A DNA stretch of 64,000 nt, taken from assembly GCF_900589395.1 (NCBI RefSeq), contig NZ_UUIS01000001.1:454460-518459 (forward strand). Reading direction: 5' to 3'. The DNA is from Pseudomonas viridiflava (GTDB lineage: Bacteria > Pseudomonadota > Gammaproteobacteria > Pseudomonadales > Pseudomonadaceae). Under the pieces are notes generated by a model. That model searched no databases. It was given only the letters and a program-made list of their open reading frames with translations, and was not told the origin of the DNA. Position numbers and translations under genes: made by a program. Below are positions 9,994 to 27,926 of this stretch, piece after piece (the first letter of the stretch is position 1; every line of letters begins with the position of its first letter).

Positions 9994-10097
9994 GAGCATT
10001 CCTCGTTGAGCGCTTCAAAGGCCGCCAGTATGCCCGCGCAGCCAGACAGCGCAACAGCGGCAAAACGCCCTTCACTTGTGCCCGGGCGCCGTCCCCC

Positions 10098-12768: not shown

Positions 12769-13617
12769 ATGCCGAACGTACGACTTGCCGCCCTGACTGC
12801 CGAAATCGAAGCCAACGTGCGCCGTGCGCTGCTCGAGGACGTCGGCAGTGGCGATATCACCGCCCAGTTGATTCCCGAAGAGCGCCTGGCCAAGGCCACG
12901 ATCATTTCCCGCGACGCCGCTGTGATCGCCGGCACCGCCTGGGTGGATGCCGTTTTCCGCCAGCTCGACCCACGCGTGGCCGTGCACTGGCAAGTGGTCG
13001 ACGGTGACCGGGTCGTGCCTGACCAGGTGCTGTTCCACCTCGAAGGCCCGGCCCGCTCCCTGTTGACCGGCGAGCGCAGTGCACTGAATTTCCTGCAGCT
13101 GCTTTCGGGGGTGGCCACCCGCGCACAATTTTTCGCCGACCTGGTGGCCGGTACCCAGGTCCGGCTGCTCGACACCCGCAAGACGCTGCCCGGCCTGCGT
13201 CTGGCACAGAAATACGCGGTCACCTGCGGCGGCTGCGATAACCATCGCATCGGCCTGCATGACGCCTTCCTGATCAAGGAAAATCATATTGCCGCCTGCG
13301 GTGGCATTGCCCAGGCCGTGGTCGCGGCCCATCGCATCGCCCCGGGCAAACCGGTGGAGGTCGAAGTCGAAAGCCTCGAAGAACTCCAGCAAGCGCTGGA
13401 CGCCGGGGCCGATATCGTCATGCTCGATGAACTGAGCCTGGACGACATGCGCGAAGCGGTGCGCCTGAACAAGGGTCGGGCCAGGCTCGAAGCCAGCGGC
13501 GGCATCAGCGAACAGACACTGCGCACCATTGCCGAGACTGGCGTGGATTACATTTCGATCGGCTCGATGACCAAGGATATAAAGGCGGTGGACCTTTCGA
13601 TGCGCCTGAGCCTCTGA
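12769..13617 (+). CDS. nadC: Nicotinate-nucleotide pyrophosphorylase (quinolinate phosphoribosyltransferase)
   Basis: NadC converts quinolinate and PRPP to nicotinate mononucleotide, CO2 and PPi in de novo NAD synthesis. The 282-aa protein has the family N-terminal domain, then [15 protein letters not shown], the substrate-binding [17 protein letters not shown] near residues 135-150 and [15 protein letters not shown], ending with the barrel segments LEASGGIS and [11 protein letters not shown] 12769 has GTGGAG 7 nt upstream and begins at the conserved [14 protein letters not shown]; the upstream GTG 12757 adds only four residues. Confidence 0.96.
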
Positions 13618-13664
13618 AGAGGCTGATCCTCAACCGTGTTGAAGATGCCCGAAGGAGTGATGCC

Positions 13665-14747
13665 TTGAAAGAATGGTTTGTAATCAACGCCGGCAAACAG
13701 ATCGGCCCGATAGACGCGGCCGCTGCTCGCCTGATCGCCCGCGAGGCGCCGGGTGCCTGGTGCTGGCGCCAGGGCATGGCCGACTGGCAGCCCATCTATC
13801 AGGTCAGCGAAGTGCGTGCGGTCAAGAAAGACGGCGTCACGCCCTTCCCCGACCCGGCCCCGGAAATGATCCAGCCGCGCCCTGGCGCCCTGCCGGCCGG
13901 TGCGACCCCGGCCGCCAGCCCGCCTGCACCGGCCAACCCGCTGCCGCGTCCCTCGTTCAGTCCCGACCCGCCGGCCTCCGGCGGCTATGGCTCGGCAGCG
14001 GCCACCGATGGCGTCGACTTCAAGCTGTTCGGCACCGAAACGCAGTTCGTCGAACTGGAGCTGGACCGTGGCGAAAGCGCCGTGGCCGAGGCCGGCGCCA
14101 TGATGTACAAAACCTGCGATGTGCAGATGGAAACCATCTTTGGCGACGGCAGCAGCCAGTCCTCGGGACTGCTGGGCTCACTGTTCGGCGCCGGCAAGCG
14201 CATGCTCACCGGCGAGAGCCTGTTCACGACCGTGTTTTCGCAGCAGGGCACGGGCAAGGGCCGCGTGGCGTTTGCCGCGCCCTACCCCGGCACCATCCTG
14301 CCGCTGCGGCTGCGCGATTTCGGCGGCAAGCTGGTCTGCCAGAAAGACAGCTTCCTGGCCGGTGCCAAGGGCGTGTCGATCGGCATCCAGTTCCAGAAAA
14401 AGATCCTTACCGGCCTGTTCGGCGGTGAAGGCTTCGTGCTGCAGAAACTTGAAGGCGACGGCTGGGTGTTCGTGCACACCGGCGGCACCGTGCGCAAGAT
14501 CGAGCTGGCGGCCGGCGAGTCACTGGATGTCGACACCGGCTGCCTGGCGGCCATGACCCAGACCATCGACTACGACATCCGCATGGTCGGCGGCATCAAG
14601 TCGATGCTGTTCGGCGGTGAAGGTGTGTTCTTCGCCAAGCTGACCGGCCCCGGTACTGTCTGGCTGCAAAGCCTGCCCTTCTCACGACTGGCCGGACGCA
14701 TGCTTGCAGCCCTGCCGGCCGGCAGCGTTGGCCGCAGCGAACGCTGA
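13665..14747 (+). CDS. GYF_2-AIM24 (TIGR00266-type) protein of the Ter cluster
   Basis: This 360-aa protein has two parts: an N-terminal GYF_2-like domain (WFVINAGKQIGPIDAA, then GAWCWRQGMADWQPI, about residues 1-60), a proline/alanine-rich linker (about 65-110), and an AIM24/TIGR00266 beta-rich domain to the end. It uses a TTG start at 13665 with AAGGAG 7 nt upstream; the ATG at 13660 stops after two codons. AIM24-like proteins recur beside TerD genes and are thought to act with membranes or proteins, but no enzyme activity is known. Probably co-transcribed with the TerD-VWA gene 28 nt downstream. Confidence 0.85.
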   Translation: MKEWFVINAGKQIGPIDAAAARLIAREAPGAWCWRQGMADWQPIYQVSEVRAVKKDGVTPFPDPAPEMIQPRPGALPAGATPAASPPAPANPLPRPSFSPDPPASGGYGSAAATDGVDFKLFGTETQFVELELDRGESAVAEAGAMMYKTCDVQMETIFGDGSSQSSGLLGSLFGAGKRMLTGESLFTTVFSQQGTGKGRVAFAAPYPGTILPLRLRDFGGKLVCQKDSFLAGAKGVSIGIQFQKKILTGLFGGEGFVLQKLEGDGWVFVHTGGTVRKIELAAGESLDVDTGCLAAMTQTIDYDIRMVGGIKSMLFGGEGVFFAKLTGPGTVWLQSLPFSRLAGRMLAALPAGSVGRSER

Positions 14748-14775
14748 ATATTACTGCCCACTACAAGGAAGCATC

Positions 14776-16032
14776 ATGCAGATCACCCAAGGTCAACGCG
14801 TACCGCTCTCGACCCTGATGTCCGGCCAGGCATTGACCCTGGCCATCGCTATCGACGCCCCGCACGTGATCGACTACGTGTGCTTTGGCGTCGATGCCAA
14901 TGGCAAGCTGTCGGACGACCGCTACATGATCTTCTTCAACCAGCCGAGCAGCCCCTGCAACAGCTTGCAGCAAGTGCAAGGCGGCGAGTTCCGCATCGAT
15001 CTGGCAGGGCTGCCGGCCAGCATCGATCGCCTGGTGTTCACCGCGTCCATCGACGGTGCCGGCACCATGCACGATATCCGTGCCAGCCATTTCAGCCTGG
15101 CCGAGGCCGGGCGCGAAGTGGCCCGCGGCGAGTTCTCCGGCGCCAGCTTTGCGGCCGAGAAAGCGATCATGGTCATCGACCTGTACCGCAAGGGTGGCGA
15201 GTGGCGCCTGGCGTCCAACCTGCAAGGCTACAACGCCGGGCTGGACGCGCTGGTGGTGCATTTTGGTGGCGAGGTGGCTGATGAACCGGCCCCTGCGCCT
15301 GCCCCGGTAGCGGAACCTGCGTCGCCGCGTATTTCCCTGGAAAAGAAAGTCGCAGCGGCGGCGCCACAGTTGGTCAACCTGGCCAAGAAAGCCCAGATCA
15401 GCCTGGAAAAGGCCAACTTGAGCAATACCCAGGCGCGGGTCGGCCTGGTACTGGATGCTTCCGGTTCCATGAACAACCAATACTCCCAGGGACATGTGCA
15501 GGAAGTGGTCAACCGGCTGCTGCCAATGGCCGTGCATTTCGACGATGACGGCGCCCTGGACTGCTGGGCCTTTGGCTCGCGCTCGGTGCAACTGAGCCCG
15601 GTGACGCTGAGCAATTACCGCGACTACATCACCACCGACCTCGGCGGCTGGCGCGAGTGGGACCTGGGCCCGCGCAGCAACAACGAACCACATGCCATGC
15701 GCCAGGTTATCGACTACTACAAGCAATCGGGCGATCGCACGCCGGTGTACATCCTGTTCATCAGCGACGGCGGCGTATCGCTGAACAACCAGATCATCAA
15801 GCTGATGGTCGAAGCCGCCAGGCTGCCGATCTTCTGGCAGTTCGTCGGCCTGGGCGGGCGGAACTACGGAATTCTGGAAAAACTCGACGACATGGAAGGC
15901 CGGGTGGTGGACAACTGCAACTTCTTCGCCCTTGACCGTCTGAACGAAGTGCCTGAAGAGAAGCTGTATGACCTGCTGATGGAAGAGTTTCCCGACTGGC
16001 TCAAGGCGGCCAAGGTGGCCGGGATTATCTGA
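14776..16032 (+). CDS. TerD-VWA (TerF-like) protein
   Basis: This 418-aa protein has an N-terminal TerD-type beta-sandwich (about residues 1-170: MQITQGQRVPLSTLMSGQAL, then VVHFGG), a short PA-rich linker (PAPAPAPVAEPASP), and a C-terminal von Willebrand A domain with a metal (MIDAS) motif DASGSM near residue 232 and ISDGG near 335. TerF-like proteins of this design are proposed to scaffold Ter complexes through metal-dependent contacts. ATG 14776 has AAGGA upstream; earlier in-frame codons overlap the AIM24 gene. It points toward the minus-strand ter genes and shares a bidirectional terminator with them. Confidence 0.88.
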   Translation: MQITQGQRVPLSTLMSGQALTLAIAIDAPHVIDYVCFGVDANGKLSDDRYMIFFNQPSSPCNSLQQVQGGEFRIDLAGLPASIDRLVFTASIDGAGTMHDIRASHFSLAEAGREVARGEFSGASFAAEKAIMVIDLYRKGGEWRLASNLQGYNAGLDALVVHFGGEVADEPAPAPAPVAEPASPRISLEKKVAAAAPQLVNLAKKAQISLEKANLSNTQARVGLVLDASGSMNNQYSQGHVQEVVNRLLPMAVHFDDDGALDCWAFGSRSVQLSPVTLSNYRDYITTDLGGWREWDLGPRSNNEPHAMRQVIDYYKQSGDRTPVYILFISDGGVSLNNQIIKLMVEAARLPIFWQFVGLGGRNYGILEKLDDMEGRVVDNCNFFALDRLNEVPEEKLYDLLMEEFPDWLKAAKVAGII

Positions 16033-16061
16033 GCCTTCAACCGAGCGTGCGCCGCCCATAA

Positions 16062-16090
16062 AAAAACCGCCATCGATGATGGCGGTTTTT
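16062..16090. terminator. Bidirectional terminator between the convergent ter transcripts
   Basis: A perfect 13-bp stem (AAAAACCGCCATC, 62-74; inverse 78-90) with a GAT loop has T-runs on both strands. It lies 30 nt after the TerD-VWA stop and 19 nt after the stop of the opposing terD gene. Confidence 0.93.
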
Positions 16091-16108
16091 CATAGTGCGC
16101 GATAAGCC

Positions 16109-16687
16109 TTAGCCGATCGACACACCGTGGGCTTCAGCCAATGGCTTCAGACCACCGGCAAAGCCTGCACCGATGGCCTTGAACTTGAACTCTTCACCAT
16201 GGCGGTACAGCTCGCCGAAGATCATCGCGGTTTCGGTCGATGCATCTTCCGACAGGTCGTAACGGGCAATTTCCTTGCCGTCGGCCTTGTTCACCACACG
16301 AATGTAGGCGTTGCCCACCTGACCGAAGCTTTGCTTGCGCGCTTCGGCATCGTGGATGGTCACGGCGAACACCAGCTTCTTCACGGCAGCGTTCAAGCTG
16401 GTCAGCTTGACCAGCACGGCTTCGTCGTCACCGTCGCCAGCGCCGGAGCGGTTGTCGCCCAGGTGCTCGACCGAGCCATCAGCCGACGTCTTGTTGTTGT
16501 AGAAAATGAAGCTGTTGTCGTCCAGCACCTTGCCGCTTTCGCCCACGATGAAGATCGAAGCGTCGAGGTCGAACTCGGTGCCGTCGGTGACACGCGGATC
16601 CCAACCCAGGCCTACAGTAATTTCGGTCAGGCCAGGAGCTTCCTTGGACAGCGAGACGTTACCGCCTTTACTCAGACTTACAGCCAT
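16109..16687 (-). CDS. terD: TerD family protein (paralogue 1)
   Basis: This 192-aa stand-alone TerD domain starts [20 protein letters not shown]. It has the calcium-site signatures of the family: EFDLDAS near residue 40 and [19 protein letters not shown] near 78-96. TerD proteins bind Ca2+ with these Asp residues and take part in tellurite, phage and oxidative stress resistance in other bacteria. It is last in the minus-strand ter operon and close to its neighbour paralogue (37-nt gap), which suggests tandem duplication. AAGGA precedes the ATG. The symbol is by family; terD versus terE cannot be assigned with certainty. Confidence 0.9.
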
Positions 16688-16724
16688 TTGCGTGTTCCTT
16701 TGTTGAGGACAATAAGGGAATGAA

Positions 16725-17300
16725 TCAGAAGTTCAGACCGTAAGAATTGGCAACAGCAGCCAGACCACCAGCATAACCCTGGCCTACGGCGCGGAATTTC
16801 CACTCGCCGTTGTTACGGTACAGCTCGGCAAACATCATGGCCGTTTCGGTCGAGGCGTCCTCGGCCAGGTCGTAGCGCACGACTTCTGCACCGGTCTTTT
16901 CGTTGACCACGCGGATGAAGGCATTGCCTACCTGGCCGAAGCTCTGCCGGCGTGCATCGGCTTCGTGGATGGTGACCACAAAAACGACTTTTTCGACATC
17001 GGCAGGCACCCGGCTCAGGTCGACCTTGATGACTTCGTCATCGCCGTCGCCGGCACCGGTACGGTTGTCACCGGTGTGCTCGACCGAGCCATCAGCACTC
17101 TTGAGCTGATTGTAGAAAATGAAGTCTGCATCACTGCGAACCTTGCCACTGGCGCTCAGCAGGAAGGCGCTGGCGTCCAGGTCGAATTCCTGGCCATCGG
17201 TGCTACGCGGGTCCCAACCCAGTCCGATCAGGACATTGGTCAGGCTCGGGTCGGTCTTGGACAGCGAAAGGTTGCCACCTTTTTGCAGGGTCAAAGCCAT
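16725..17300 (-). CDS. terE: TerD family protein (paralogue 2, TerE-like)
   Basis: This 191-aa TerD-domain protein starts [20 protein letters not shown], with [11 protein letters not shown] and [19 protein letters not shown], i.e. an intact acidic Ca2+-binding set. It is clearly similar to the adjacent 192-aa paralogue over the whole length (both contain SFGQVGNA(F/Y)IRVVN and EDASTETAM). The start has AAGGAG 10 nt upstream. The cluster order terC-terE/terD suggests these two work with the membrane protein TerC. The choice of terE or terD as a name is arbitrary. Confidence 0.9.
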
Positions 17301-17327
17301 GATGGATACTCTCCTTTTTTCCAGTTT

Positions 17328-18365
17328 TTACGCTTGTTTGGCCGGCTCATCGTCCTTGCCGGGGAACAGCAGGCTGGCAACGATACCGATGGCAAGCACA
17401 ACCATGACCACGATCAGGCTGGCGTTGGCACTGATGCTGTAGCCGTGCTCGAAGATGTGATCAGTTGCATTGAGGCCCAGTTTGATCGCGATGAAGAACA
17501 ACAGCGCGATCACCGCTTTTTCCAGGTGAACCAGATAACGCTTGAGGGCTTCAAGTACGAAGTACAGGGTACGCAGGCCCAGGATGGCGAACAGCATGGC
17601 CGAGTAGACGATCAGCGGCTCGCGGCTCACGGCAATGATCGCCGGGACCGAGTCGAAGGCGAACAGGACGTCGGAGATTTCGGCCACGACCACACACAGG
17701 AACAGTGGAGTCGCGAACAGCGTGCCTTTGGCCGCCAGGGTCATGCCGCTGTTTTCCGGTTTCTTGATTTCTTCTTCCAGCACCGAGCGGCGTACGAAGA
17801 AGTTGTGGCCATGCAGCTTGGGCCAGACCGGGAACAGTTTCTTGGCGAAGCGATAGGCCATGTGCTGGGAGTAGTCGACTTCTTCGTCGTCATCGTCACC
17901 GGCACGCAGCATCATCACCGCCGTCCAGGCCACGATCAGCGCGAACACCACCTCGACCCACGGACCCAGGGCCAGCAGGCCGGTACCGATGGCCACGAAG
18001 ATGCCGCGGAACACGATGGCGCCCATGATGCCCCAGTACAGCACGCGGTGGCGCAGGCCATCGGGGATCTTGAACCAGGCGAACAGGGCCATGAACACGA
18101 ACAGGTTGTCGACGCTGAGGACTTTCTCGAGCGCGTAGCCGGTCACGAACAGGGTGGCCACTTCCGAGCCATGCTGGACGTACAGGAAACCTGCGAACGC
18201 CAGCGAGATGGCCACCCAGAAAATCGACCACAGCGAAGCCTGGGTCAGGGTGATCGGCTTGTTACCCCGGTGCGAGACCAGGTCAATGATCATCGCGCCG
18301 ATGGCCAGACCGATGAAGACGGCCATTGTGAGTGGAGGGAAGCCGATAGCAGTGCTGCTTTCCAT
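17328..18365 (-). CDS. terC: TerC family integral membrane protein
   Basis: This 345-aa inner-membrane protein has about nine hydrophobic helices. The TerC signatures are visible: YALEKVLSVDNLFVFMALFAWF near residues 80-100 and AEISDVLFAFDSVPAI near 225-240, the latter carrying membrane Asp residues proposed to bind metal ions. A charged cytoplasmic loop (AGDDDDEEVDY) lies mid-protein. TerC-family members are linked to metal export or metalation at the membrane and are proposed partners of TerD proteins. It lies between terB and the terD pair on one strand. Confidence 0.94.
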   Translation of the reverse strand: MESSTAIGFPPLTMAVFIGLAIGAMIIDLVSHRGNKPITLTQASLWSIFWVAISLAFAGFLYVQHGSEVATLFVTGYALEKVLSVDNLFVFMALFAWFKIPDGLRHRVLYWGIMGAIVFRGIFVAIGTGLLALGPWVEVVFALIVAWTAVMMLRAGDDDDEEVDYSQHMAYRFAKKLFPVWPKLHGHNFFVRRSVLEEEIKKPENSGMTLAAKGTLFATPLFLCVVVAEISDVLFAFDSVPAIIAVSREPLIVYSAMLFAILGLRTLYFVLEALKRYLVHLEKAVIALLFFIAIKLGLNATDHIFEHGYSISANASLIVVMVVLAIGIVASLLFPGKDDEPAKQA

Positions 18366-18392
18366 TTAACTGTGTTCCTCAGGGGATAAAAA

Positions 18393-18842
18393 TTACAGGT
18401 CGAATTCGGCCGGGCTCAGGCCCAGTTCCTGGCAGATCAGACGACAAGCCTGGCGCTCACTCTCGTCGAAGCTGCCGTCAGCCCCGCCGATGGCACAGCA
18501 GACACGCACCAGCAGGCGTGCAGCGTCTTCTTTTTTCTTGATCTTGCCAATGGTCTTGAGTGCTTCGGCACGGCCGATCTGCACATCGAACTCGAACTTG
18601 GAGCAGATATCGTTGAACGACGCGATGACGTCCTTGATATCAAACACCTTGAGTTCCTGGGAGTTCTGGATGAAGCCGGCCATCTTCTGCTTCTCGTTGG
18701 CGCTGATGTCGCCATCGGCCGCCGCGACCAGCGCACAGCCCGACACGACGGCGTCGAGGAATTCGCGGTTCTTGAATTTCGACACTTCGGCACCCAGCTT
18801 CTCGCGCGCCGCTGTTGCATTCGTTTTCAACCAACCCAGCAT
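18393..18842 (-). CDS. terB: Tellurite resistance protein TerB
   Basis: This 149-aa cytoplasmic all-helical protein of the TerB/DjlA family starts MLGWLKTNATAAREK. It carries the family's two acidic metal-binding repeats: ALVAAADGDISANEKQKM near residues 40-58 and CAIGGADGSFDESERQA near 120-136. TerB is thought to sense or bind metal ions and to join TerC with TerD-type proteins in a membrane complex. ATG 18842 has a GGGGG Shine-Dalgarno; a GTG four codons upstream is possible but less well placed. Confidence 0.92.
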   Translation of the reverse strand: MLGWLKTNATAAREKLGAEVSKFKNREFLDAVVSGCALVAAADGDISANEKQKMAGFIQNSQELKVFDIKDVIASFNDICSKFEFDVQIGRAEALKTIGKIKKKEDAARLLVRVCCAIGGADGSFDESERQACRLICQELGLSPAEFDL

Positions 18843-18894
18843 TTGAACCCCCAAGGGGCAGCCAACGCCGCCCCGGATACTTCGTTATGAAAGT

Positions 18895-20124
18895 TTATTT
18901 GGAACCTGCAGCCCAGCGCATGCCCCAGCCATAGGCCTTGTCCATGTTGCTGTGGCCGTTATGGAAGTCGACCCGGCGGCTCACTTTCACCGCACCGTTG
19001 TCATTTTCCAGCAACGCGATGGCGCACATGCCCTGGCGGCCGCCCTCTTCGTTCAGGCGCACCTCGATGGGCGGCTGGCCCGGGACGTGGATGGTGACCA
19101 CGCCGTCGGTTTCCTTCCAGTTGGGCGCACCTTCGTAGATGAAGGCATAGACCAGGATGCGACGGATCTTGCCCCAGTGCTGGCCATTGATGTGCAGCCA
19201 CTCGCCCTCGTTGACAGAGCCGGTGCGGTCATCGCCCATCAACTTGATGAAAGGCTCGGCGTGCAGGCTGCCAAAGGCATTGCCCAGCGCCTGGACCGCG
19301 CCCTTGTGGCCATCCTGCAGCTCGAACAGACAGCCTACATCAAGGTCGATTGCAGAGTTCTTGCGCATCGAAAAGAAACCGCCACCCTTGCTTTCGCTGC
19401 GCCGGTTCCAGTTCAGGTTGACGCGGATTTCGCCGAAGCCTGCCGCCGTCTTTTCCAGGCTGATGGAAGAGCGGGTCTTGTCCAGCGTGATCTTGCTCAG
19501 GCTGACCGTCGACTTGACGGCCGGCGCCGGGGCGGGTGTCGGCGCTGGAGCGGGTGCTGGTGCAACGGTGGGTGCCGGTGCCGGTGGCGGTACAGGCGCG
19601 GGCGCCGGTGCTGGCTCGGCCGCCGCCACCTCGACACCAAAATGCTTGGCCAGGGGCTCCAGGCCCCCGGCAAAGCCCTGGGCCACGCAGCGAAACTTCC
19701 AGGCGCCCTGGCGCAGGTAAAACTCGCCCAGGATCAATGCGGTTTCCTGCATGCCGGACGTTGCGATCGGCGCTTCGATGCCCCCGCTGATGGTCACAAC
19801 CAGCCGCGAGAGCTTGTCGAAGCGGGCCTTGTTCTCGTAGATGGTCGCGGTCAGGGCGACTTTCTCGATGGCCGGGTCCAGCCGGGCCGGATCAAGGCTG
19901 AAACGCGCCTTGCCGGCCGAGCTGTCGATCAGTTGCACGGCCCCGCCACTGACGCTTTTCTGGCCGAAGAAACACATGTCCTGGTCGCCACGCACCTTGC
20001 CGGTACTGGTCAGCAGGAATGCAGAAACATCGATATCGGCGCCGGACAACGGCGAATAGTCGACATCGACCGTCAAGGATCCCGCCGCAACGGGCGCGTT
20101 GGCACCTGGGACAAGTTGGGTCAT
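18895..20124 (-). CDS. terA: TerA-like double TerD-domain protein
   Basis: This 409-aa protein has an N-terminal TerD-like domain (about 1-168) in which the acidic GDGDDE loop is absent, a 40-residue linker of almost only Pro, Ala and Val (about 172-210), and a second TerD-like domain (TVSLSKITLDKTRSSISLEK onward) with IDLDVGCLFEL and GDDRTGSVNEGEWL. This layout matches TerA of tellurite operons. The start overlaps the upstream terZ-like stop by 4 nt (ATGA), so translation is coupled. The linker region is low complexity and GC-rich. Confidence 0.86.
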   Translation of the reverse strand: MTQLVPGANAPVAAGSLTVDVDYSPLSGADIDVSAFLLTSTGKVRGDQDMCFFGQKSVSGGAVQLIDSSAGKARFSLDPARLDPAIEKVALTATIYENKARFDKLSRLVVTISGGIEAPIATSGMQETALILGEFYLRQGAWKFRCVAQGFAGGLEPLAKHFGVEVAAAEPAPAPAPVPPPAPAPTVAPAPAPAPTPAPAPAVKSTVSLSKITLDKTRSSISLEKTAAGFGEIRVNLNWNRRSESKGGGFFSMRKNSAIDLDVGCLFELQDGHKGAVQALGNAFGSLHAEPFIKLMGDDRTGSVNEGEWLHINGQHWGKIRRILVYAFIYEGAPNWKETDGVVTIHVPGQPPIEVRLNEEGGRQGMCAIALLENDNGAVKVSRRVDFHNGHSNMDKAYGWGMRWAAGSK

Positions 20125-20711
20125 GCGCGAATCGCTCCAATGGCCAGGTCGACCAGATCGTCCGCGGTACGGCCATTGGTGACCTGGCCCACAGCGGTGA
20201 AGTCCCAGCCGGTGGCGGTGCGCGACAGGTACGACATGACCACGCCGGTGTGCTGGCCTTTTTCCGACAGGTCGAAGCGACCCAGCTCATTGCGGGTGGC
20301 GTTGTCGACGATACGGCAGTAGGCGTTGGCCACTTTCTCGAAGGTCTGGCCGGTGAACGAGTTGACGGTGAACACCAGGTATTTCACGGTGCCCGGCAGG
20401 CGCTCCAGGTCGACGCTGATGTTTTCGTCATCGCCTGCCCCTTCGCCGGTACGGTTGTCGCCGGAATGCTGGATGGCACCGTCGCGCGATTCCAGTTGGC
20501 GGAACCAGACCAGGTCCAGTGGTTTCTTGTCGGCATCCAGAACAATGCACGAAGCGTCCAGGTCGATCTCGCCGCCACCACCGAGCAGTTTGCCGAAGAA
20601 GCCACTGGCTTTTTCCGGATCCCAGCCCAGGCCCATGCTGACTTTCTTCAGGCCGGTGCCCGCAGTTTTTTCCAGCGAGATCGTCTGATTCTTTGCCAAT
20701 GTGAGTGCCAT
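20121..20711 (-). CDS. terZ: TerD family protein, TerZ-like
   Basis: This 196-aa TerD-domain protein starts MALTLAKNQTISLEKTAGTG. It differs from the other two single-domain paralogues by a short Gly-rich insertion (SGFFGKLLGGGGEIDLDAS) as in TerZ, while keeping GDNRTGEGAGDDENISVDL, the Ca2+-site loop. It is the first ter-structural gene after the metabolic module, 45 nt downstream of the HAD gene. It probably begins the terZ-A-B-C-E-D series as in classic ter operons. Confidence 0.87.
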   Translation of the reverse strand: MALTLAKNQTISLEKTAGTGLKKVSMGLGWDPEKASGFFGKLLGGGGEIDLDASCIVLDADKKPLDLVWFRQLESRDGAIQHSGDNRTGEGAGDDENISVDLERLPGTVKYLVFTVNSFTGQTFEKVANAYCRIVDNATRNELGRFDLSEKGQHTGVVMSYLSRTATGWDFTAVGQVTNGRTADDLVDLAIGAIRA

Positions 20712-20756
20712 GTTTTCGCTCCCTGTGTACGGTCGTCGGATAAAAGCGTGACAGCG

Positions 20757-21461
20757 TTACCGCGATGGCTCATCAACGCCATCACGATTGTGTAACTTGG
20801 CGTTAACAGGCCCCTTGTAGCGGCCACGTCGCCATGACGGATGAAAGTGTCGCCAGTGGGCATCCTGAGCGGCGGCGAGCAATTCATGATCGCCGCTGGT
20901 GTCGCCCCAGGCACGTACCCGGAATTGATTCAAAGGGCCGTAGACGCCTTCAAGGCGGGCCACTTTGGAATCGCGGCGACAGTTGCTGCCTGCGATCAGG
21001 CCGGTCAGCTTGCCGTCGATGATTTCCAGATTGGTGCCGATCAGCTCGACTTTCAAGCGGTTGGCGAATGGCTGCAGGACGATTTCCGGCGAAGCTGAGC
21101 ACAGCGTCACAATTGCGCCCTTGTCGATCTCGGCGGCAACCGACTCCAGCGCGGCCGGACGCATCAGGCGATCCCACCAGGCTTCGCAGAAGGCCTCGGC
21201 CTGCTGCTGGACCCACTCCACCTCGACGCCGCTCAGGAATGCCTTGATCAGGCGTGCCTTGAGTTCATCGCGACTGACGCGCCGGGCCAGGAAGCCCAGG
21301 CTGGGCAGAACCATGCCAGCCATGCGCCGGGAAAAGGTGCGCTGGCCAAAGGCAAATTTCAGAAAGGGGACGAAGCTGTCGTGCCGGGTCAGCGTGCCGT
21401 CGAAATCGAACACGGCCAGCAGGCGTTCCTGCACTTCAACTTCCAGATCGGGCTCTATCAT
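20757..21461 (-). CDS. HAD-IB family hydrolase of the Ter cluster
   Basis: This 234-aa haloacid-dehalogenase-fold phosphatase shows all motifs: motif I FDFDGTLTRHDSF at about 18-30 with nucleophile Asp, motif II TLCSASPEIVL near 118-128, and motif IV GDTSGDHELLAAA near 190-202. Sequence style is that of SerB-like (PSP) HADs with a helical cap. In Ter-associated modules such phosphatases are proposed to dephosphorylate an intermediate of a nucleoside-like metabolite; that is inference. It starts at 21461, one nt before the citrate-lyase-like stop at 21462, so translation is probably coupled. Confidence 0.87.
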   Translation of the reverse strand: MIEPDLEVEVQERLLAVFDFDGTLTRHDSFVPFLKFAFGQRTFSRRMAGMVLPSLGFLARRVSRDELKARLIKAFLSGVEVEWVQQQAEAFCEAWWDRLMRPAALESVAAEIDKGAIVTLCSASPEIVLQPFANRLKVELIGTNLEIIDGKLTGLIAGSNCRRDSKVARLEGVYGPLNQFRVRAWGDTSGDHELLAAAQDAHWRHFHPSWRRGRYKGPVNAKLHNRDGVDEPSR

Positions 21462-22412
21462 TTAACTGACTGCCTCCGCGAGTCGAATGCTGGCATCCAC
21501 GATCGGAGCGGATGCCGGCAATACGCCATGCCACTTGGCGCGCTCCATGATGTGGGTTGCCCATTTGTAGTGCGTGGCCGGCTCACACATCGCATCGTTG
21601 TACTTGAACACCGCGGCGGCCGCAGAGTTCAATATCATCCGTGCAGAATTCATGTCATCGAGGCTGACCCGCAAGGCGTTCTGGATGATCGTGATCTGCG
21701 ACGGATGAATGGCGGTCTTGCCCACCAGCCCGTGCGAGATGTCCAGCGCCAGCTCCTGATCAAGAATCTGCGGCGTGGCCAGTTGCTCGAACACCGGCGC
21801 GGTCAGGGCAAACCCCTGCGAACCCATGACGCCGGCCAGCATCGGAATCACGTAGCCCATGGGCGTGCCATACAGGGTCATGGCCGGCGTGCGGCGCAGG
21901 CCCAGGCAGCCCATCAGGTCGTTGCCACCGATGCGCAAGGCAATGATGCGCTGGTCCAGGGTGGCCTTGAGCGCCTGACCGAGCTCGACCATCGCCACCG
22001 GGTTGAAGACCTCCGGCGTTTCCAGGGTCGGCATCAGGGCCAGGGCCGGGTTGGTCACCGCCTGCTCCCAATGCCTGAGGTTGCCCAGCGACAGCTTGGG
22101 CACCACAAAACCGTCCACATGTTTCATCAAGGGCCAGTCGTTGAGTACCCGGGCCATATGTTCGTCGCGTGGACGCACGAACAGCAGCGGGCCGCCTTCG
22201 GGACGCCCGCCATAGGCCTCGATGCGCAACAGCACATGGCGCAGGTTGGCCAGCGCCGTGTCGACGTCGACCGGCGCCACGGCATCTTCCAGGCACACCA
22301 CCAGCGAGCGCAGCTCGGGGATGCGTTGGGCGACCACCACTTCGAGAATGTCATCCCGGGTGGCCGGCATGTACAGGGTGGCCCCCAATGCGTAAGGCGA
22401 AAAAAGTGCCAT
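21462..22412 (-). CDS. HpcH/HpaI aldolase / citrate lyase beta-like enzyme of the Ter cluster
   Basis: This 316-aa TIM-barrel enzyme of the CitE/HpcH family starts MALFSPYALGATLYMPATRDDI. Recognisable barrel segments are LVVCLEDAVAP (acidic Mg2+ ligand), LLFVRPRDEHM, LMPTLETPEVF (second acidic ligand) and IALRIGGNDLMGCLG. CitE-like enzymes make or break C-C bonds next to a carboxylate or thioester. In Ter modules the reaction is not established. The ATG at 22412 shares a base with the stop of the PRTase gene (TGATG). The open frame continues upstream to 22805, but that part lies inside the PRTase gene. Confidence 0.87.
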   Translation of the reverse strand: MALFSPYALGATLYMPATRDDILEVVVAQRIPELRSLVVCLEDAVAPVDVDTALANLRHVLLRIEAYGGRPEGGPLLFVRPRDEHMARVLNDWPLMKHVDGFVVPKLSLGNLRHWEQAVTNPALALMPTLETPEVFNPVAMVELGQALKATLDQRIIALRIGGNDLMGCLGLRRTPAMTLYGTPMGYVIPMLAGVMGSQGFALTAPVFEQLATPQILDQELALDISHGLVGKTAIHPSQITIIQNALRVSLDDMNSARMILNSAAAAVFKYNDAMCEPATHYKWATHIMERAKWHGVLPASAPIVDASIRLAEAVS

Positions 22413-23521
22413 CAGCCAAGACTCCGAATGATGGTTGCCGCCCGATAGGGGCCAAGAGCGGCGCCGGCCTGTTCGACGGGCACGCCCGCCTGTTCGGTCA
22501 GATGCAAAAGCAATTGCACGTCGTTGTCGCGCAGGTCGCGCACCAGCACATGATCGGGCACCCGGCGCATGACCGCGCGGGTCGCCTCGGCAATGCCGGG
22601 CTTGATGCGGTTGAGGTTGTTCACGTCGAACCGCGCCGCCAGCCTGTCGACGGCCTGCCCTGCGGCCGTCTGAAGCGCCAGGCGTTGCGCGGCGGTCCAG
22701 GGTTCGACCGCGCTGACGTCCGTCAGTTGCCGACGCCGCTCGTCGAGCTGTTCGATGAACGGGCGAGTCATGTCGCAAGGCTGCAGGTGATCGTAGATGA
22801 CACACCCATGCAGGCCGCCGTCGGCCGGCCAGATGGAGCGCGAGACCAGGCCTGACACCGTGGCACCGAGGATTCCCGAGGGAATCACCCAGTCCTCAGC
22901 CGAGGCCGCCAGCCAGGCCCGGCCACACGGGTCGGCCAGTACCACCAGTCGCGGCTGCTCGGGAAAGCGTGCATCGCCTGCCAGGCTGCGGCTGATTTCG
23001 CCACTGATCGCGCCCTTGCCGGTCCAGCCATCGACGAACACGATGGCCTGCGCGCCGTGGGTTTGGATGATGGCCTCCAGCGCTGTGCGGTCGATGCCAC
23101 GATCGCGAACAATGCTGATCCCGTAGTGATGCGCCTTGCGGCCCAGGTCAAGCAAGGCCCGGCGCAACAGTACGCCCAGCGGCAGGCCGGCGCGCACGAA
23201 CGACACCAGGACGATCTCGGGGCCCGGGCACTGGCGATCCAGTGCCTGGGCCAGCGCCTGCACGTCGACGGCCATGCGGGTGCCGTTCTGGGCCAGTGCG
23301 CGTTCGAAAAGGTCCTGGTGCACCGGGTCGGGTGCCTTTTCCAGGCTGATCATTTCCGAATAGTGCTTCTGCCGGGTCTGGATCAGGCGTTCCTTTTCCA
23401 TGACATCGGTGACTTCGATCTCGACGCTGCGCAGCAGGAAGTGCACGTCATCGGGGTGATAGCTGCCGCTGCCGACCGTGGCCAGGCCTTGCACGGTGCC
23501 CGCCTGCAACACGTTACTCAC
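22412..23521 (-). CDS. StiP-type PRTase-like protein (PF11202 family) of the Ter cluster
   Basis: This protein of about 370 aa is annotated in databases as 'cysteine protease StiP family', but comparative work classes it as a phosphoribosyltransferase-like (PRTase_1) protein with a C-terminal helical region. The segment IVLVSFVRAGLPLGVLLRR and the later AIVFVDGWTGKGAISGE (a PRPP-loop-like site) support a PRTase-type fold. I choose GTG 23521 because AGGAG lies 7 nt upstream; ATG 23527, six bases earlier, touches that AGGAG. Both starts lie inside the end of the HAD gene, so translation is coupled. Confidence 0.82.
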   Translation of the reverse strand: MSNVLQAGTVQGLATVGSGSYHPDDVHFLLRSVEIEVTDVMEKERLIQTRQKHYSEMISLEKAPDPVHQDLFERALAQNGTRMAVDVQALAQALDRQCPGPEIVLVSFVRAGLPLGVLLRRALLDLGRKAHHYGISIVRDRGIDRTALEAIIQTHGAQAIVFVDGWTGKGAISGEISRSLAGDARFPEQPRLVVLADPCGRAWLAASAEDWVIPSGILGATVSGLVSRSIWPADGGLHGCVIYDHLQPCDMTRPFIEQLDERRRQLTDVSAVEPWTAAQRLALQTAAGQAVDRLAARFDVNNLNRIKPGIAEATRAVMRRVPDHVLVRDLRDNDVQLLLHLTEQAGVPVEQAGAALGPYRAATIIRSLG

Positions 23522-24275
23522 CGGCATGCTCCTGGACCAGACGTGCCAGCTGGCTGCGCGCCGGTGTGGCCCACCAATGGCAATCGTCCATGAAACCCAG
23601 GTCGGTGATGCTGTCGCCAAAGCCCAGCACCGGGCGCTCGCCGTTCACGGCGCGGTCGCGGCGCAGCCATTCCTGCACGGCATGGCGCTTGGCCAGGCCT
23701 TCAGGCAGGAAGGCCAGGTTATTGCCGTTGCCATGTATGTGCAGCCCTTCCAGCAGCCCGCGTGCCTGCACTTCGGCCAGCACCCGCTCCAGCACGCTGT
23801 CGTCGTTTTCGTTGTGCTTGGTGACCACGTAATGGAACAACCGGGCCTCCTCGACCACCCAGCCACGCAGCGAAATGCCCATTTCCCGGCCAATGGCCAG
23901 GGTGGTGGCGCTCAGGTCATGCAGGCGCGCCTGATAGGGCGCCAGCGTGTCCTGCATCTGCGCATGCCAGTCCTGATCGAGCTGGCCGGCGACATCGAGC
24001 ATGACCCCGCCGTGGGAGCAGATGGCGCCGGCGGTGAATGGCAGGCGCACCCGGCTGAAGGCCTCGACACTGCGTGCGGTGACCGGCACCACGTCGGCAT
24101 TGGCCAGCATCCAGTTGACGAACGAGCGCTGTACGTTGGTCATGTAGCCATTGGCATTACCGGTGATGTCCACGGTGGCCACGTGCTTTTCGATGTTCGC
24201 CGCGGTCTTGCGCGCGGTCTGGAACAGGGTGTCGTCCAGGTCGACGAGAATCAGCGGACGTTCGTTATTGATCAC
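23514..24275 (-). CDS. HAD family hydrolase (Cof-like) of the Ter cluster
   Basis: This HAD phosphatase of about 253 aa has motif I LVDLDDTLFQT close to the N-terminus and motif IV GFGDSITDLGFMDDC near residue 220. The inserted cap resembles Cof/sucrose-phosphatase types. GTG 24275 is preferred: GAGG lies 6 nt before it, and it begins directly before NNERPLILVDLDD; the ATG at 24290 has no ribosome site and would overlap the PRTase gene by 26 nt. It is the second HAD of the module and flanked by the two PRTase genes, which suggests a role in the same pathway. Confidence 0.83.
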   Translation of the reverse strand: MINNERPLILVDLDDTLFQTARKTAANIEKHVATVDITGNANGYMTNVQRSFVNWMLANADVVPVTARSVEAFSRVRLPFTAGAICSHGGVMLDVAGQLDQDWHAQMQDTLAPYQARLHDLSATTLAIGREMGISLRGWVVEEARLFHYVVTKHNENDDSVLERVLAEVQARGLLEGLHIHGNGNNLAFLPEGLAKRHAVQEWLRRDRAVNGERPVLGFGDSITDLGFMDDCHWWATPARSQLARLVQEHAGE

Positions 24276-25398
24276 AGATAACCTCGGCATTCAGCGCATC
24301 GATCAGCTCGGCCGAGACGGCCTGTGCCGGTGTTTCGGTGCAGATCAGCACCCGGTCGAACTGCCCCGGCTGCACATTGTACAAAAAGTTGGGAATGCCC
24401 AGCCCGTAGTTGTCCCCAAACGACAGGGCGTGGCCGATGGCATGGCCCAACGCGATCGGCGAACGGCTGGTGGAGCTGAAGTGCACATCGGCACCGGCTC
24501 GTTCGAGACGTTCGGCGAGCAGGAATGGCCGCCAGACGAACTCGCTGGTGCCCACCACCAGTACCCGCTCGCCGGGCGTCACGTGCAGGTCCGGCGCCAG
24601 GCTGTCGGCGACCGAGCGCACGCCCAGGCGGCCCCAGTCGTTGGCGGCGGTCAATGGCCAGTCCCCTGCCAGCACGGTGCCGACTTCGGGCATGTCCGGC
24701 AGCGGTGCGCTGGCATCTTCGGTAAAGCGATAGGCCCCCTGCAACAGCGACACCTGGTCGGTGGTGACGTCCATGGCACGGCTGACGGCATCGGCCGACC
24801 AGTCGGTCAGCACGCACGTGACGACGCGCTTGATGTGCTCGAGGCCGGCCTCGACCAGGGCGCGATGCAGGTTGATGAAGGTCTTGCCGGTCGAGGCTTC
24901 GTCATCGACCAGCACCAGCGAACGGGCGGCCAGCATCGACTCGCGCAGCGGCGCATCGACCGGCAGGTGGATCAGGTGCGCGCTGGCATGGCTGTGTTCT
25001 TCTTCGAAGCGGGCGAACAGCGGCGTGCCGGTCGGGTGCCGGGTGCTGATCAGGTACAGGGCATCCGATCGGGTCTGGCTGTAGGCGCGGTGCACGCCGG
25101 CCCCCAGCCCGACGGCGGTCTCGGCCATGCCGATGACCAGCACCGGGCCTGGAAGGTCGGCCGGGATCTTGTCGGCCAGGTCCTGGAAGCTCTGGCGCAT
25201 GACGCCGGGACGCACCGGGATATGCCGGCCCAGGACCTTGGAGACGAACAGAAACGCGCGCTTGGGGTTACGCCGTTCGGCAAAGCCGAACAGGGCCTGC
25301 GGTGCGATGGTCGACGCCTCGACGGTGACGTCGAGGCGTCCGCGAAGCAGCTCGGCATGCAGCGAAGTCGGTTGGGTGAGCGCCTGGCGGCTGTCCAT
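24265..25398 (-). CDS. PRTase-TRSP domain protein of the Ter cluster
   Basis: This 377-aa protein has an N-terminal phosphoribosyltransferase-like domain and a C-terminal TRSP domain. The PRPP-binding loop is clear: SLVLVDDEASTGKTFINLHRAL near residues 170-190, matching the acidic-acidic-x-x-(S/T)-G-K/T PRTase signature. The C-terminal half has RVLVVGTSEFVWRPFLLAE and SSTSRSPI, typical of TRSP. ATG 25398 (MDSRQALTQ) has AGGA 8 nt upstream; the frame stays open further upstream without homology. It is proposed, with the other PRTase, to act on a ribose-phosphate-containing compound. Confidence 0.85.
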   Translation of the reverse strand: MDSRQALTQPTSLHAELLRGRLDVTVEASTIAPQALFGFAERRNPKRAFLFVSKVLGRHIPVRPGVMRQSFQDLADKIPADLPGPVLVIGMAETAVGLGAGVHRAYSQTRSDALYLISTRHPTGTPLFARFEEEHSHASAHLIHLPVDAPLRESMLAARSLVLVDDEASTGKTFINLHRALVEAGLEHIKRVVTCVLTDWSADAVSRAMDVTTDQVSLLQGAYRFTEDASAPLPDMPEVGTVLAGDWPLTAANDWGRLGVRSVADSLAPDLHVTPGERVLVVGTSEFVWRPFLLAERLERAGADVHFSSTSRSPIALGHAIGHALSFGDNYGLGIPNFLYNVQPGQFDRVLICTETPAQAVSAELIDALNAEVICDQ

Positions 25399-25447
25399 CG
25401 TGTAATTCCTGGTTGGTAAGGCTGGGTGGCGCATCGAGCAAAGGCTG

Positions 25448-26590
25448 TCAGCCACGAGAGGCTTCGACAAGCCATAAAGATGATTGGGCGACACGTGAGA
25501 TTTCAGTGGTGGTGTAGGTCTTGTCCGGCTGCAGGAGGGTGGTCGGCACGCGACAGGCCTGCAGGAACGCCACCAGCAACGCGGACTTGACTGCAAAGTT
25601 CATGTTCTGTGCATCCGGCACGCTGGAGGTCACCATGCCCACCACCGCTCCGCCACTGTCAAACAGGGGACTGCCACTGGAGCCGGGCTGGATGGGCGCG
25701 GTGAACTGCAACAGGCTGGCATCGCTGTGCAGGCCGAACAGGCTGGAAATACCGCCTTGGGTCACTTGCAGGCTGCCGCCGGAAATCGAGGCCAGCGGGT
25801 AGCCCAGCGCCACGACGTTGTCACCGGCTTCGCAGCCCGGCCCCTCACGAAACGGCAGGGTCTTGAGCGGCGATGCGCCCTGCACGCGCAGCAGGGCAAT
25901 GTCGTTGCGTCGGTCGACCACCACCGGCTCGACCTTGTAGCGCCCTTCCAGCGAGGTGATGTACAGCACGCTCATGTCTTCGATGACATGCGCGCAGGTC
26001 ATCAGGTGCGCAGGGCCCACCACGAAGGCGGTGCCGGTGGCTGACTGGTGACGCTGGCCATCGTGTCCGCCGCCCTGGTTGCCCCGGCGCGGATGAAAGT
26101 CGCTGACCTCCAGGCCGATCTTGCGCCCGAACGCGGCCAGGCCGTAGGCCGAACCTTCGCTCAGGGCGCGGAATTTCCATTGATCGTTGCGGCGATAGAA
26201 CTCACCGATGATGATCGAGGCCTCGCCATAGTCGCGCAGGTCGAGCGAATACTCGACGGCGGGATCAATGTGAAGGCTCAGGCTGGCGATTTCACTGACC
26301 GGACCGGCAGCAGCATAGACGTAGACCATCAGCAGCACCCGGTCACTGCCGGCCGGCAGGCTGCCCAGGGTCAGCGAACATCCCACATCCTGCGGACCGC
26401 CACTCCATTGCATCCACGACTGCTCGTCATGCAGCAGCGCAGCGGGACCTGTGGGCTGGCGCTTGTCGTTGACCGGCAACAGGGCGACGGCCGCGTATTC
26501 GCCAAAGATGGACGCTTTGCCGCTCTTGAGGTTCCAGGCGCAACGGTCTGCGGCAAGGGCAATGTTCGCGCCGGGTGCAAGAACGGTCAT
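25448..26590 (-). CDS. TerD-trypsin-like serine protease fusion
   Basis: This 380-aa protein fuses a divergent N-terminal TerD-like domain (about residues 1-165, ending YGLAAFGRKIGLEV) to a trypsin-like protease domain. The full triad is present: His in MTCAHVIED near residue 203, Asp in RRNDIALL near 230, and Ser in PGSSGSPLFD near 305. No signal peptide is seen, so it is probably cytoplasmic. AAGGAGG is ideally placed before ATG 26590. A 218-bp gap upstream suggests a separate promoter. A protease that is regulated through its TerD part in response to metal or stress is an inference. Confidence 0.85.
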   Translation of the reverse strand: MTVLAPGANIALAADRCAWNLKSGKASIFGEYAAVALLPVNDKRQPTGPAALLHDEQSWMQWSGGPQDVGCSLTLGSLPAGSDRVLLMVYVYAAAGPVSEIASLSLHIDPAVEYSLDLRDYGEASIIIGEFYRRNDQWKFRALSEGSAYGLAAFGRKIGLEVSDFHPRRGNQGGGHDGQRHQSATGTAFVVGPAHLMTCAHVIEDMSVLYITSLEGRYKVEPVVVDRRNDIALLRVQGASPLKTLPFREGPGCEAGDNVVALGYPLASISGGSLQVTQGGISSLFGLHSDASLLQFTAPIQPGSSGSPLFDSGGAVVGMVTSSVPDAQNMNFAVKSALLVAFLQACRVPTTLLQPDKTYTTTEISRVAQSSLWLVEASRG

Positions 26591-26808
26591 GCCGGTCCTC
26601 CTTGATAGGCTGAAGAAACGTCTTTAGGGTGAGTTTTCATTCGATGCACATGCGGCCAGCGCCTGCTTTCATGCACGCGCCGGCACGGTCTCCAGGCTCG
26701 TGCCCAACAGTAACATCCCGGCAGGCGCGACTCGCTACAAAACCGCTACATTTGTTCGCGGTGTGCTCAAGCCTTTTCCCTACCGATAGCAAAAAACTAT
26801 TATCACGA
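26591..26808. promoter_or_regulatory. Probable promoter region of the TerD-protease gene
   Basis: This is the largest gap in the minus-strand Ter series. A possible pair on the minus strand is TTGATC (26807-26812) and TATCGG (26783-26788) with an 18-nt spacer. The match is weak. An intrinsic terminator for the ATP-grasp gene is not evident. Confidence 0.35.
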
Positions 26809-27807
26809 TCAACCGAAAGCCCGTACAGCGACGGTGATGGCCTTGACCCGGATATTTTCCTGCCAATGTGTTTCCGGTTCTTTCAAGCCCAGGCGACGCG
26901 TGGCAAAGATGCCGGGCAGGTTGATCCCGGTTTCGCGCGTGTAGCCAATCCCGCCTGAATAGCGCGGGTTGATTTCCAGCAAGTGCGCAATGCCCTCATC
27001 GTCATCGCGGGTCTGCACGTTGACCAGGCCATCGCAGGCAAAATGCTCGGCGGCGCGCATTGCCAGGCGCACGGCATCGCTGTCGCGCTCGAATGTCTGG
27101 TGCAGCCCCTGCTTGCGTCGTCCGACCCCGGCCACTACACGGCCCTGCTCACACACAAGGTCAACCGAGCATTCACTGCCGGCCATGTACGGCATGACCA
27201 ACAGCGGCGCCCGCTCGCCTGGCTGGCGGTAGGCATGCAGGTAGGCTTCGAAGCTGGTTTCCCGGGCATCAGGGTTGGCAAAGCCGCGAAAGGCGTCCAC
27301 ATCGGCCTTGAAGCGCCAGAACCCCTGGCCAAAAATGCCCACGGTAGGCTTGATGCATACCTCGCCGCTGGCTGACAGGGTGTCGAAAGCGCGTTGCAAC
27401 TGATCGGCATCGGTCACGGTAATGCCCGGCACACACGGCAGGCCGGCCTGCTCGGCCGCCGCCGTGAAACAGCTTTTGTCATCGACCTGGCGAAATGTCT
27501 CGGTGGACCCCCCCCCGGTGACCAGGTCCAGGCCCGCCTCCGCGAAGCGCTGGCGATGCGCTTCGTAAAAACCACCGAGGCGTCCGGCGATCACCACCTT
27601 GACGTCCTGCTGCACTGCCGTATGGATGACCCACTCAAGACGTTCAAGGTTGTCAGCCGGCTCTTGCAGCGCCAGGTCGGCCAACGCGGTAATCTCCGGG
27701 CGGGCCTGCCGGTGAGAGGCAATGATGCGCACCGAAGCCGGCAACGCTTCGCGCGCGCCCATGATCACTTCACGCTGGCTGGATTGCCCTTCAAGAAACC
27801 AAATCAT
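26809..27807 (-). CDS. ATP-grasp domain protein of the Ter cluster
   Basis: This 332-aa ATP-grasp ligase starts MIWFLEGQSSQREVIM. It has the nucleotide-binding CIKPTVGIFGQGFW near residue 152, LLVMPYMAGSECSVDLVC near 205, and the metal-binding carboxylate end LLEINPRYSGGIGYTR near 290, i.e. pre-ATP-grasp, A and B subdomains. ATP-grasp enzymes join a carboxylate to an amine or thiol through an acyl-phosphate; the substrate here is not known. It is the first gene of the minus-strand Ter series. The coding strand carries a run of nine G (27508-27516), a possible slippage site. Confidence 0.87.
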   Translation of the reverse strand: MIWFLEGQSSQREVIMGAREALPASVRIIASHRQARPEITALADLALQEPADNLERLEWVIHTAVQQDVKVVIAGRLGGFYEAHRQRFAEAGLDLVTGGGSTETFRQVDDKSCFTAAAEQAGLPCVPGITVTDADQLQRAFDTLSASGEVCIKPTVGIFGQGFWRFKADVDAFRGFANPDARETSFEAYLHAYRQPGERAPLLVMPYMAGSECSVDLVCEQGRVVAGVGRRKQGLHQTFERDSDAVRLAMRAAEHFACDGLVNVQTRDDDEGIAHLLEINPRYSGGIGYTRETGINLPGIFATRRLGLKEPETHWQENIRVKAITVAVRAFG

Positions 27808-27926
27808 GCAACTCTCCGTCTTTCATGGTGACAAGGATGGCCTTGTCGAATTTTGTAATAACTGTTTTGCTTCAAAATGTTCGGATTAGGGCAAAGTCAC
27901 GCAATTTTTCATAGGGGAACAATGAC

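Follow-up and report, generated by a model that had tools for sequence, protein, structure and literature searches.

A Ter stress-response cluster beside nadC in Pseudomonas: a conserved four-enzyme core with a possible phosphoribosyl product, and its accessory protease and DUF1523 genes

What do the metabolic genes of a Ter cluster make, and which of the genes around them belong to the same system? The question is raised by positions 13665-27807 of a 64,000-nucleotide stretch of the Pseudomonas viridiflava genome (6.19 Mb), namely positions 454460-518459 of contig NZ_UUIS01000001.1, hereafter called the window, where 13 genes on the minus strand and two convergent ones on the plus strand form a Ter cluster with a metabolic module (Table 1). 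The nearest named relative in our scan is Pseudomonas ovata F51, whose proteins of this region are 91-100% identical. A Ter system of this kind, together with its metabolite, was reportedly proposed by Anantharaman in 2012. We consider it reasonably probable that the genes by nadC constitute a horizontally spread Ter stress or conflict cluster, in which a module making a phosphoribosyl compound would act on the TerC/TerD complex.

From first to last, the minus-strand genes encode ATPgrasp_Ter, a TerD-protease, PRTase_2-TRSP, a HAD, StiP-PELOTA, a C-C lyase, HAD-IB, TerZ-like, TerA-like, TerB, TerC, TerD and TerE-like proteins; AIM24 and TerF, on the plus strand, are convergent with this series, and none of the 15 genes contains an internal stop. 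According to Pfam, TerC, TerB and TerD-family proteins occur together, and PRTase_2, StiP, HAD, ATP-grasp and C-C lyase are linked to the ter genes. The domain content shows a membrane-linked Ter part (TerC, TerB, TerD-family proteins, TerF) joined to a metabolic operon, and conservation among the loci described below shows the invariant core of this operon: PRTase_2, a HAD phosphatase, StiP, which has a predicted PRTase (phosphoribosyltransferase) fold and is L7Ae-like, and a CitE-like lyase. An earlier note on this DNA, made from the letters alone, had placed all 15 genes correctly, and its domain calls and Ter assignment proved right (by Pfam, and by a solved relative for the second HAD): PRTase, ATP-grasp and TerD folds, whose absence it had named as a refutation, are all found by Pfam. 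Where it counted five TerD-fold proteins, Pfam finds the TerD domain in five minus-strand genes and, with TerF, in six genes of the block. Two things were missing from its gene list: the DUF1523 gene (27927-28475), which is divergent, and the trypsin-like domain in the product of 25448-26590. The overlaps on which it based joint translation (22412, 23514-23521, 24265-24275 and 20121-20124) are confirmed for the starts chosen here, and their lengths of 1, 8, 11 and 4 bases recur in the annotated Pseudomonas megaplasmid pPUV-18. Coupled translation of the metabolic genes is plausible. Rfam gave no match inside the cluster, and a promoter and terminator scan remained at chance level. Ten of the 15 proteins were covered by the NCBIfam search; among the 10 of 15 run in PADLOC, the protease domain alone was matched (RT-Protease and other models).

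The core was delimited by searching genome contigs with a StiP profile, which returned at least 588 related stretches; the best 80 loci were kept, a choice biased to near relatives, and 63 of these have both flanks. In all 63 full-flank loci, StiP has PRTase_2, the core HAD and the C-C lyase beside it; ATP-grasp is present in 50 and HAD-IB in 33 (tblastn matches spanning half of the query or more). The ATP-grasp, which the earlier note had listed in the module, is not of the invariant core and looks like a tailoring enzyme. The smallest set seen is PRTase_2-HAD-StiP, with the lyase present in every full-flank locus: in the stretches examined of a Rhizobium plasmid and of phage ME3, homologues of these three were the only metabolic genes found by tblastn. 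As a separate observation, positions 10711-13967 of the Rhizobium phaseoli plasmid locus (L060; L and G numbers are our handles for loci and genomes) hold the PRTase_2, StiP and core HAD homologues, and no other window Ter gene was found in the stretch examined. These counts bear on the view that the cluster serves mainly for resistance to tellurite or metals, as an island in which the metabolic genes are loosely linked passengers. Even in E. coli MG1655, resistance to tellurite is given by the terZ-F genes of Klebsiella alone (PMC8115787, in the part available), and the metabolic module is therefore not needed for that resistance; but the four-gene core is kept with StiP in 63/63 loci of several families, and runs in the same direction as the ter genes in the window and divergently from them in the one enteric plasmid looked at, and we regard the island view as improbable.

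Within Pseudomonas, ATPgrasp_Ter at the Pfam cut-off matches far beyond the Ter gene, control genomes included (the extra matches are long frames of ~1,080 residues, carbamoyl-phosphate synthase-like by their look), and for this reason only the separated strong group was counted, which comprises 22 places, all with E of 1.2e-37 or lower, in 20 of 149 genomes. Among the 21 places other than that of the window, 20 have the same 13-gene order and strand, which is not chance, and the single exception (L051) lacks the protease only; it should be noted that choosing loci by ATP-grasp favours complete clusters. The synteny expected by the earlier note is thus borne out in this group, but not every relative keeps the gene order. 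The StiP profile finds 26 places in 23 of the 149 genomes, four of them outside the ATP-grasp group. Where no intact ATP-grasp gene is present, the StiP locus is shorter or has been rearranged. PRTase_2, HAD, StiP, lyase and ter genes keep their usual order in two genomes (G009 and G080; L190 and L191), the first of which is also without one TerD. In a third (L183, G126:C5:205000-224900), the genes of the ter cluster stand in another order, ATP-grasp and protease survive as remnants, and DUF1523 lies directly upstream of TerZ; a 4.6 kb contig (G030:C56) shows the usual gene order as far as it reaches. In 72,556 plasmid records, StiP was found in 2,568 and PRTase_2 in 2,556; our class sample of 274 genomes has StiP in 6. 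TerC does not discriminate within the genus, as 149/149 genomes match. Patchy presence, differing neighbours and plasmid copies together indicate that the cluster has spread horizontally.

StiP carries the public name of a cysteine protease (in Pfam and in RefSeq-type annotation), and our data question that name: in an alignment of 44 rows, no cysteine of the window StiP is invariant (C240 in 41/44, C199 in 38/44), C240 being invariant in a smaller alignment of nine rows. The titles of the papers naming StiP suggest no characterisation of the protein. Its AlphaFold model (predicted local distance difference test, pLDDT, 91.6; predicted template modelling score, pTM, 0.91) aligns best with PyrR/HGPRT chains, with Z about 10 over about 150 residues; 50 rows of such chains gave Z 9.4-10.4, a root-mean-square deviation of 3.0-5.4 and 118-167 aligned residues, and Foldseek matched HPRT chains with probability 0.99-1.00 at a marginal E of about 1e-3. 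A PRTase fold is predicted for StiP, and VRAG (109-112), DGW (164-166) and GKG (168-170) are invariant in the 44 rows. The earlier note had spoken of two PRTase-like proteins. The PRTase_2 + TRSP protein (24265-25398) contains the phosphoribosyl pyrophosphate (PRPP)-type motif VLVDDEASTGKT; for StiP, the claim stands at the level of the fold and against the public name, but its PRPP-type loop is not canonical: in VDGWTGKG, D164, G168, K169 and G170 are invariant in the 44 rows and G165 replaces the second acidic residue. The C-terminal domain, PELOTA in Pfam, opens a different reading, in which the metabolic module makes no free nucleoside and acts on RNA or tRNA, by base exchange or repair after conflict, StiP bringing the RNA through its L7Ae/PELOTA domain and working with PRTase_2 on ribosyl groups. 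L7Ae chains match this domain weakly (E 0.016), and K307, G309, E312, T314 and R315, invariant in the 44 rows, resemble the L7Ae RNA-contact motif. Yet the C-C lyase and the ATP-grasp look like small-molecule enzymes, and the PELOTA/L7Ae-type domain may be regulatory only; we judge an action on RNA unlikely.

Pfam recognises no HAD domain in the core HAD (23514-24275) and gives it just an Smr match below the cut-off; a HAD-IIB match in NCBIfam is likewise below it. The protein has close counterparts in the structures 6d3v/6d3w and 6cj0, deposited as 'trehalose phosphatase' (E 1.2e-115), and the corresponding Ter HAD of pPUV-18 matches the same entry with E 5.3e-161, ~18 of 251 aligned residues differing by hand count. 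A purified and solved relative of the Ter core HAD therefore exists. If its name is taken literally, the core HAD would be a true trehalose-6-phosphate phosphatase and the module would handle a trehalose- or sugar-phosphate signal, as plasmid annotations of 'trehalose phosphatase' beside PRTase_2 would also have it. Against this, a search of the PDB with the core HAD at E up to 0.1 returned 6cj0, 6d3v and 6d3w only (two distinct sequences) and no other trehalose phosphatase; the motif of the window HAD is GDSITD and not the GDDxTDE of the trehalose phosphatase signature; and the HAD gene accompanies StiP, PRTase_2 and lyase in 63/63 full-flank loci. A trehalose or sugar-phosphate route thus has, in our estimation, a low probability.

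The second gene of the operon (25448-26590) joins a TerD domain (34.9 bits against a Pfam cut-off of 25.3; in a Thiothrix relative, L128, it falls below the cut-off with 21.4 bits) to Trypsin_2. A His-Asp-Ser triad in a trypsin-like fold, as in HtrA/S1C proteases, was found: H201, D230 and S307 are invariant in 49/49 rows (43 distinct), as well as in a 23-row alignment. In the model (pLDDT 81.2, pTM 0.57, the latter leaving the domain arrangement uncertain), residues 1-159 align with 9a6r chain B (Z 18.1; the identity of the chain is unconfirmed) and residues ~175-348 with HtrA/Deg chains (Z about 17), the loops of low confidence (265-273, 286-289 and 324-329) all lying in the protease domain. 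Pfam finds no PDZ domain in it, a domain that some S1C members also lack, and hydropathy reveals no strong N-terminal hydrophobic segment or export signal. The acidic DxDxS motif, a metal-binding motif, is absent from this protein and present in the four other minus-strand TerD proteins. The TerD-protease is an accessory part. At 80% coverage it occurs in 21 of the 63 full-flank loci (a looser count of 22 included a TerD-only match in L118) and on 127 of the 72,556 plasmid records; it was found in Pseudomonas, Burkholderia, Parachitinimonas and Thiothrix loci, and the enterobacterial loci among L059 and L102-L140 gave TerD-type matches only. It is missing from L051, L067, L080, L082 and L083 and decayed to an 89-residue remnant in L073. 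Inspection of these six loci for a replacement gene revealed nothing convincing between ATP-grasp and PRTase_2 in the five that lack it, and the Pro/Ala linker of TerA was rejected as a protease substrate, being kept in the same five. Seven genomes of the class sample match the protein, at full length in G000, G226 and G357, as a fusion with stops in G232 and with the protease part only in G234, G303 and G375. The idea that it is confined to ter loci was likewise rejected, since the fusion of G357 occurs without StiP and in G226 StiP lies on another contig. A second TerD-domain protein of ~460 amino acids lies in G000 (L189, G000:C89:28000-46000, at 8654-10042), between a PAS/MCP protein and an MltA-type gene.

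Just outside 13665-27807, the DUF1523 gene is divergent from ATP-grasp across 119 bases. The hydropathy of its product shows hydrophobic stretches near both ends, from which we infer two membrane passes with a probably periplasmic middle. DUF1523 is found in 14 of 149 Pseudomonas genomes, all of them among the 23 with StiP and none among the 126 StiP-negative ones (hypergeometric 5e-14, a value that ignores relatedness). Its place varies: in the nadC group it is divergent from ATP-grasp, in L040 it adjoins TerF and in L047 TerE-like, and in G105 and G038 several kilobases separate it from the end of the ter genes. In three of the 14 genomes, G116 and G130 (on other contigs) and G132 (2.3 Mb away), no other window Ter gene was found in the surrounding 20 kb (L184, L185, L186). 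In a Crocinitomicaceae bin (L132) and in Gayadomonas (L136), it directly precedes PRTase_2. That DUF1523 is universal to Ter was rejected, only 21 of the 105 loci L038-L142 having it in the stretch examined (19 of 99 when six repeated contigs are left out), and the class sample has it in 2 of 274 genomes. The passages available from the literature containing 'DUF1523' hold no mention of Ter, a coverage that does not include the 2012 Ter paper. In seven aligned loci of one group, the 119-base spacer has two long invariant blocks, suggesting that 27839-27907 may serve as a shared control of ATP-grasp and DUF1523; this part gave no Rfam match and no consensus promoter.

The earlier note had attributed the module to a proposed nucleoside-like pathway, and this finds an echo in the available portions of two papers (PMC8115787, PMC7824862), the latter viewing the module as making nucleotide-derived signals. 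In the reading that we prefer, the core would build a phosphoribosylated compound from PRPP; StiP possibly acts on, or is regulated by, RNA; the core HAD and the lyase would trim the compound, and in some lineages the ATP-grasp and the HAD-IB enzyme would tailor it. When metals, phages or the state of the envelope cause stress, the product may then bind the TerC/TerD complex or modulate it. As accessories of this lineage, a cytosolic TerD-HtrA protease would be switched on by the state of the Ter complex, and DUF1523, in the inner membrane and probably reaching into the periplasm with one domain, would relay signals from the envelope to it. A more far-reaching version, which we put forward as a doubtful proposal, makes DUF1523 an unreported envelope sensor, TerD-HtrA a DegS-like switch of the cytosol, with a metal-blind TerD in place of PDZ and with proteolysis triggered by Ter-complex assembly or by the metabolite, and the 'trehalose phosphatase' the phosphatase of the Ter pathway, with a metabolite intermediate as its substrate.

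Several observations weigh against the preferred reading and its accessory arms. The deposited name of the HAD structures, trehalose phosphatase, would not fit a nucleoside route, and the activity data of a 2018 paper that reportedly deals with P. aeruginosa trehalose-6-phosphate phosphatases may count in the same direction. In Foldseek, the top two rows for StiP, above the HPRT chains, are unrelated glycine decarboxylases (probability 0.54). The canonical PRPP loop is longer than that of StiP and has two acidic residues; the short StiP loop without the second one makes PRTase activity uncertain. No ATP-grasp, protease or HAD-IB match was found in the otherwise orderly loci of G009 and G080. 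In the class sample, five of the six StiP-bearing genomes are without DUF1523 and G410 has DUF1523 without StiP; protease and DUF1523 are both absent from most loci outside Pseudomonas, and neither is therefore essential to the system. A lone TerD-trypsin fusion lies in the gammaproteobacterium G357 (L179, 3122-4342, minus strand) beside biotin-type genes (named by eye), with no StiP match.

The two plus-strand genes of the block are less constant than the operon. TerF was found in 13 of the 21 stretches examined around the ATP-grasp-positive Pseudomonas loci, and full-length relatives of AIM24 in 4 of the 21, every one beside nadC. Close relatives of AIM24 (at least 87%, nearly full length) occur in 3 of 59 genomes, that of the window included, all with StiP, and eight further genomes match the protein over the AIM24 domain only; in L092, AIM24 stands beside TerF with no nadC in the stretch examined. 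That AIM24 is a mere neighbour of nadC was rejected on these grounds, and because of the company its relatives keep with StiP and TerF it is retained as an accessory part.

Table 1. Genes and other features of the Ter cluster and its border (window positions)
Feature	Position	Strand	Evidence
GYF_2 + AIM24 protein, accessory	13665-14747	+	adjoins nadC; Pfam AIM24 E 5.6e-71, GYF_2 1.2e-9
TerF-like, TerD + vWA	14776-16032 (about)	+	longer open reading frame 14704-16032: Pfam vWA-TerF-like 5.6e-80, TerD 3.5e-25
TerD-family (TerE-like)	16109-16687	-	Pfam TerD 3.3e-82
TerD-family (TerD)	16725-17300	-	Pfam TerD 5.6e-89; solved relative 2kxt E 2.9e-95
TerC membrane protein	17328-18365	-	Pfam TerC 7.8e-41
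TerB	18393-18854 (18842 with ATG start)	-	Pfam TerB 1.4e-23
TerA-like: TerD domain, Pro/Ala-rich linker, C-terminal half	18895-20124	-	Pfam TerD 2.3e-32
TerZ-like TerD protein	20121-20711	-	Pfam TerD 2.4e-47
HAD-IB phosphatase, optional	20757-21461	-	Pfam HAD 5.6e-28; NCBIfam HAD-IB 1.4e-34
HpcH/CitE-like C-C bond lyase, core	21462-22412	-	Pfam C-C_Bond_Lyase 7.2e-101; 1sgj citrate lyase beta subunit E 3.1e-5
StiP: predicted PRTase fold + PELOTA/L7Ae-type domain, core	22412-23521	-	Pfam StiP 1.1e-89, PELOTA_1 1.4e-25
HAD-type phosphatase, core	23514-24275 (24290 with longer ATG start possible)	-	6d3v/6cj0 E 1.2e-115
PRTase_2 + TRSP, core	24265-25398	-	Pfam PRTase_2 4.6e-60, TRSP 1.4e-19
Divergent TerD domain fused to HtrA-fold serine protease, accessory	25448-26590	-	Pfam Trypsin_2 3.8e-25, TerD 1.3e-8
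ATPgrasp_Ter, first gene of the operon, frequent but not invariant	26809-27807	-	Pfam 6.1e-41
Conserved intergenic stretch, possible shared control region	27839-27907		two long invariant blocks, 7 aligned loci
DUF1523: two hydrophobic segments around ~115-residue domain	27927-28475	+	Pfam DUF1523 3.6e-64

The cluster is a well-conserved and already described kind of system, and its value lies in its testability. A Ter metabolite was proposed in 2012, and the role of the pathway is still called unclear in the accessible parts of two papers (PMC8115787, PMC9933665): the former says so of the interaction of the biosynthetic cluster with the TerC complex, and the latter reports that TerC supports tolerance to several stresses, envelope-active ones included, by a mechanism called unknown. 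With the survey, the core comes down to four enzymes. As one of these, the HAD, is linked to solved structures, an enzyme that has already been purified is at hand for a search for its substrate. The protease and the DUF1523 membrane protein, in turn, are possible output and input arms of the Ter system.

Among known systems, the IncP-type Pseudomonas megaplasmid pPUV-18 (NZ_MT732196.1) has all 13 genes, the TerD-protease among them, arranged as in the window, the 13 proteins being 62-90% identical to those of the window; the window copy, in contrast, is chromosomal, beside nadC, and has the AIM24 + GYF_2 protein and the adjacent DUF1523, neither of which was matched in the pPUV-18 stretch examined. 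The enterobacterial ter locus (terZABCDEF with terXYW; Klebsiella plasmid NZ_CP155706.1) shares the terZABCDE homologues and the series of ATP-grasp, PRTase_2, HAD, StiP and lyase, but is arranged as two divergent operons with extra TerY/PP2C/kinase-type genes and no TerD-protease, whereas the window has one co-directional operon. In Acinetobacter phage ME3, PRTase_2, HAD and StiP follow one another and are accompanied by TerF- and TerD-like matches, and tblastn found no lyase, ATP-grasp or protease match in the stretch examined. The structures 6cj0, 6d3v and 6d3w, close to the window HAD and very close to that of pPUV-18, are named for trehalose-6-phosphate, whereas the matching genes lie here in Ter metabolic operons. 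With DegS/HtrA (S1C), the TerD-protease has in common the fold of the protease domain and the catalytic triad, but it bears an N-terminal TerD-like domain where DegS/HtrA has PDZ, and no evident signal peptide or membrane segment. The same architecture was listed in 2008, as uncharacterised, for the Pseudomonas syringae TerD-Tryp protein YP_273108.1 (PMC2605481, in the part available), to which the present analysis adds the ter-operon setting, the invariance of the triad and the repeated absence of the gene.

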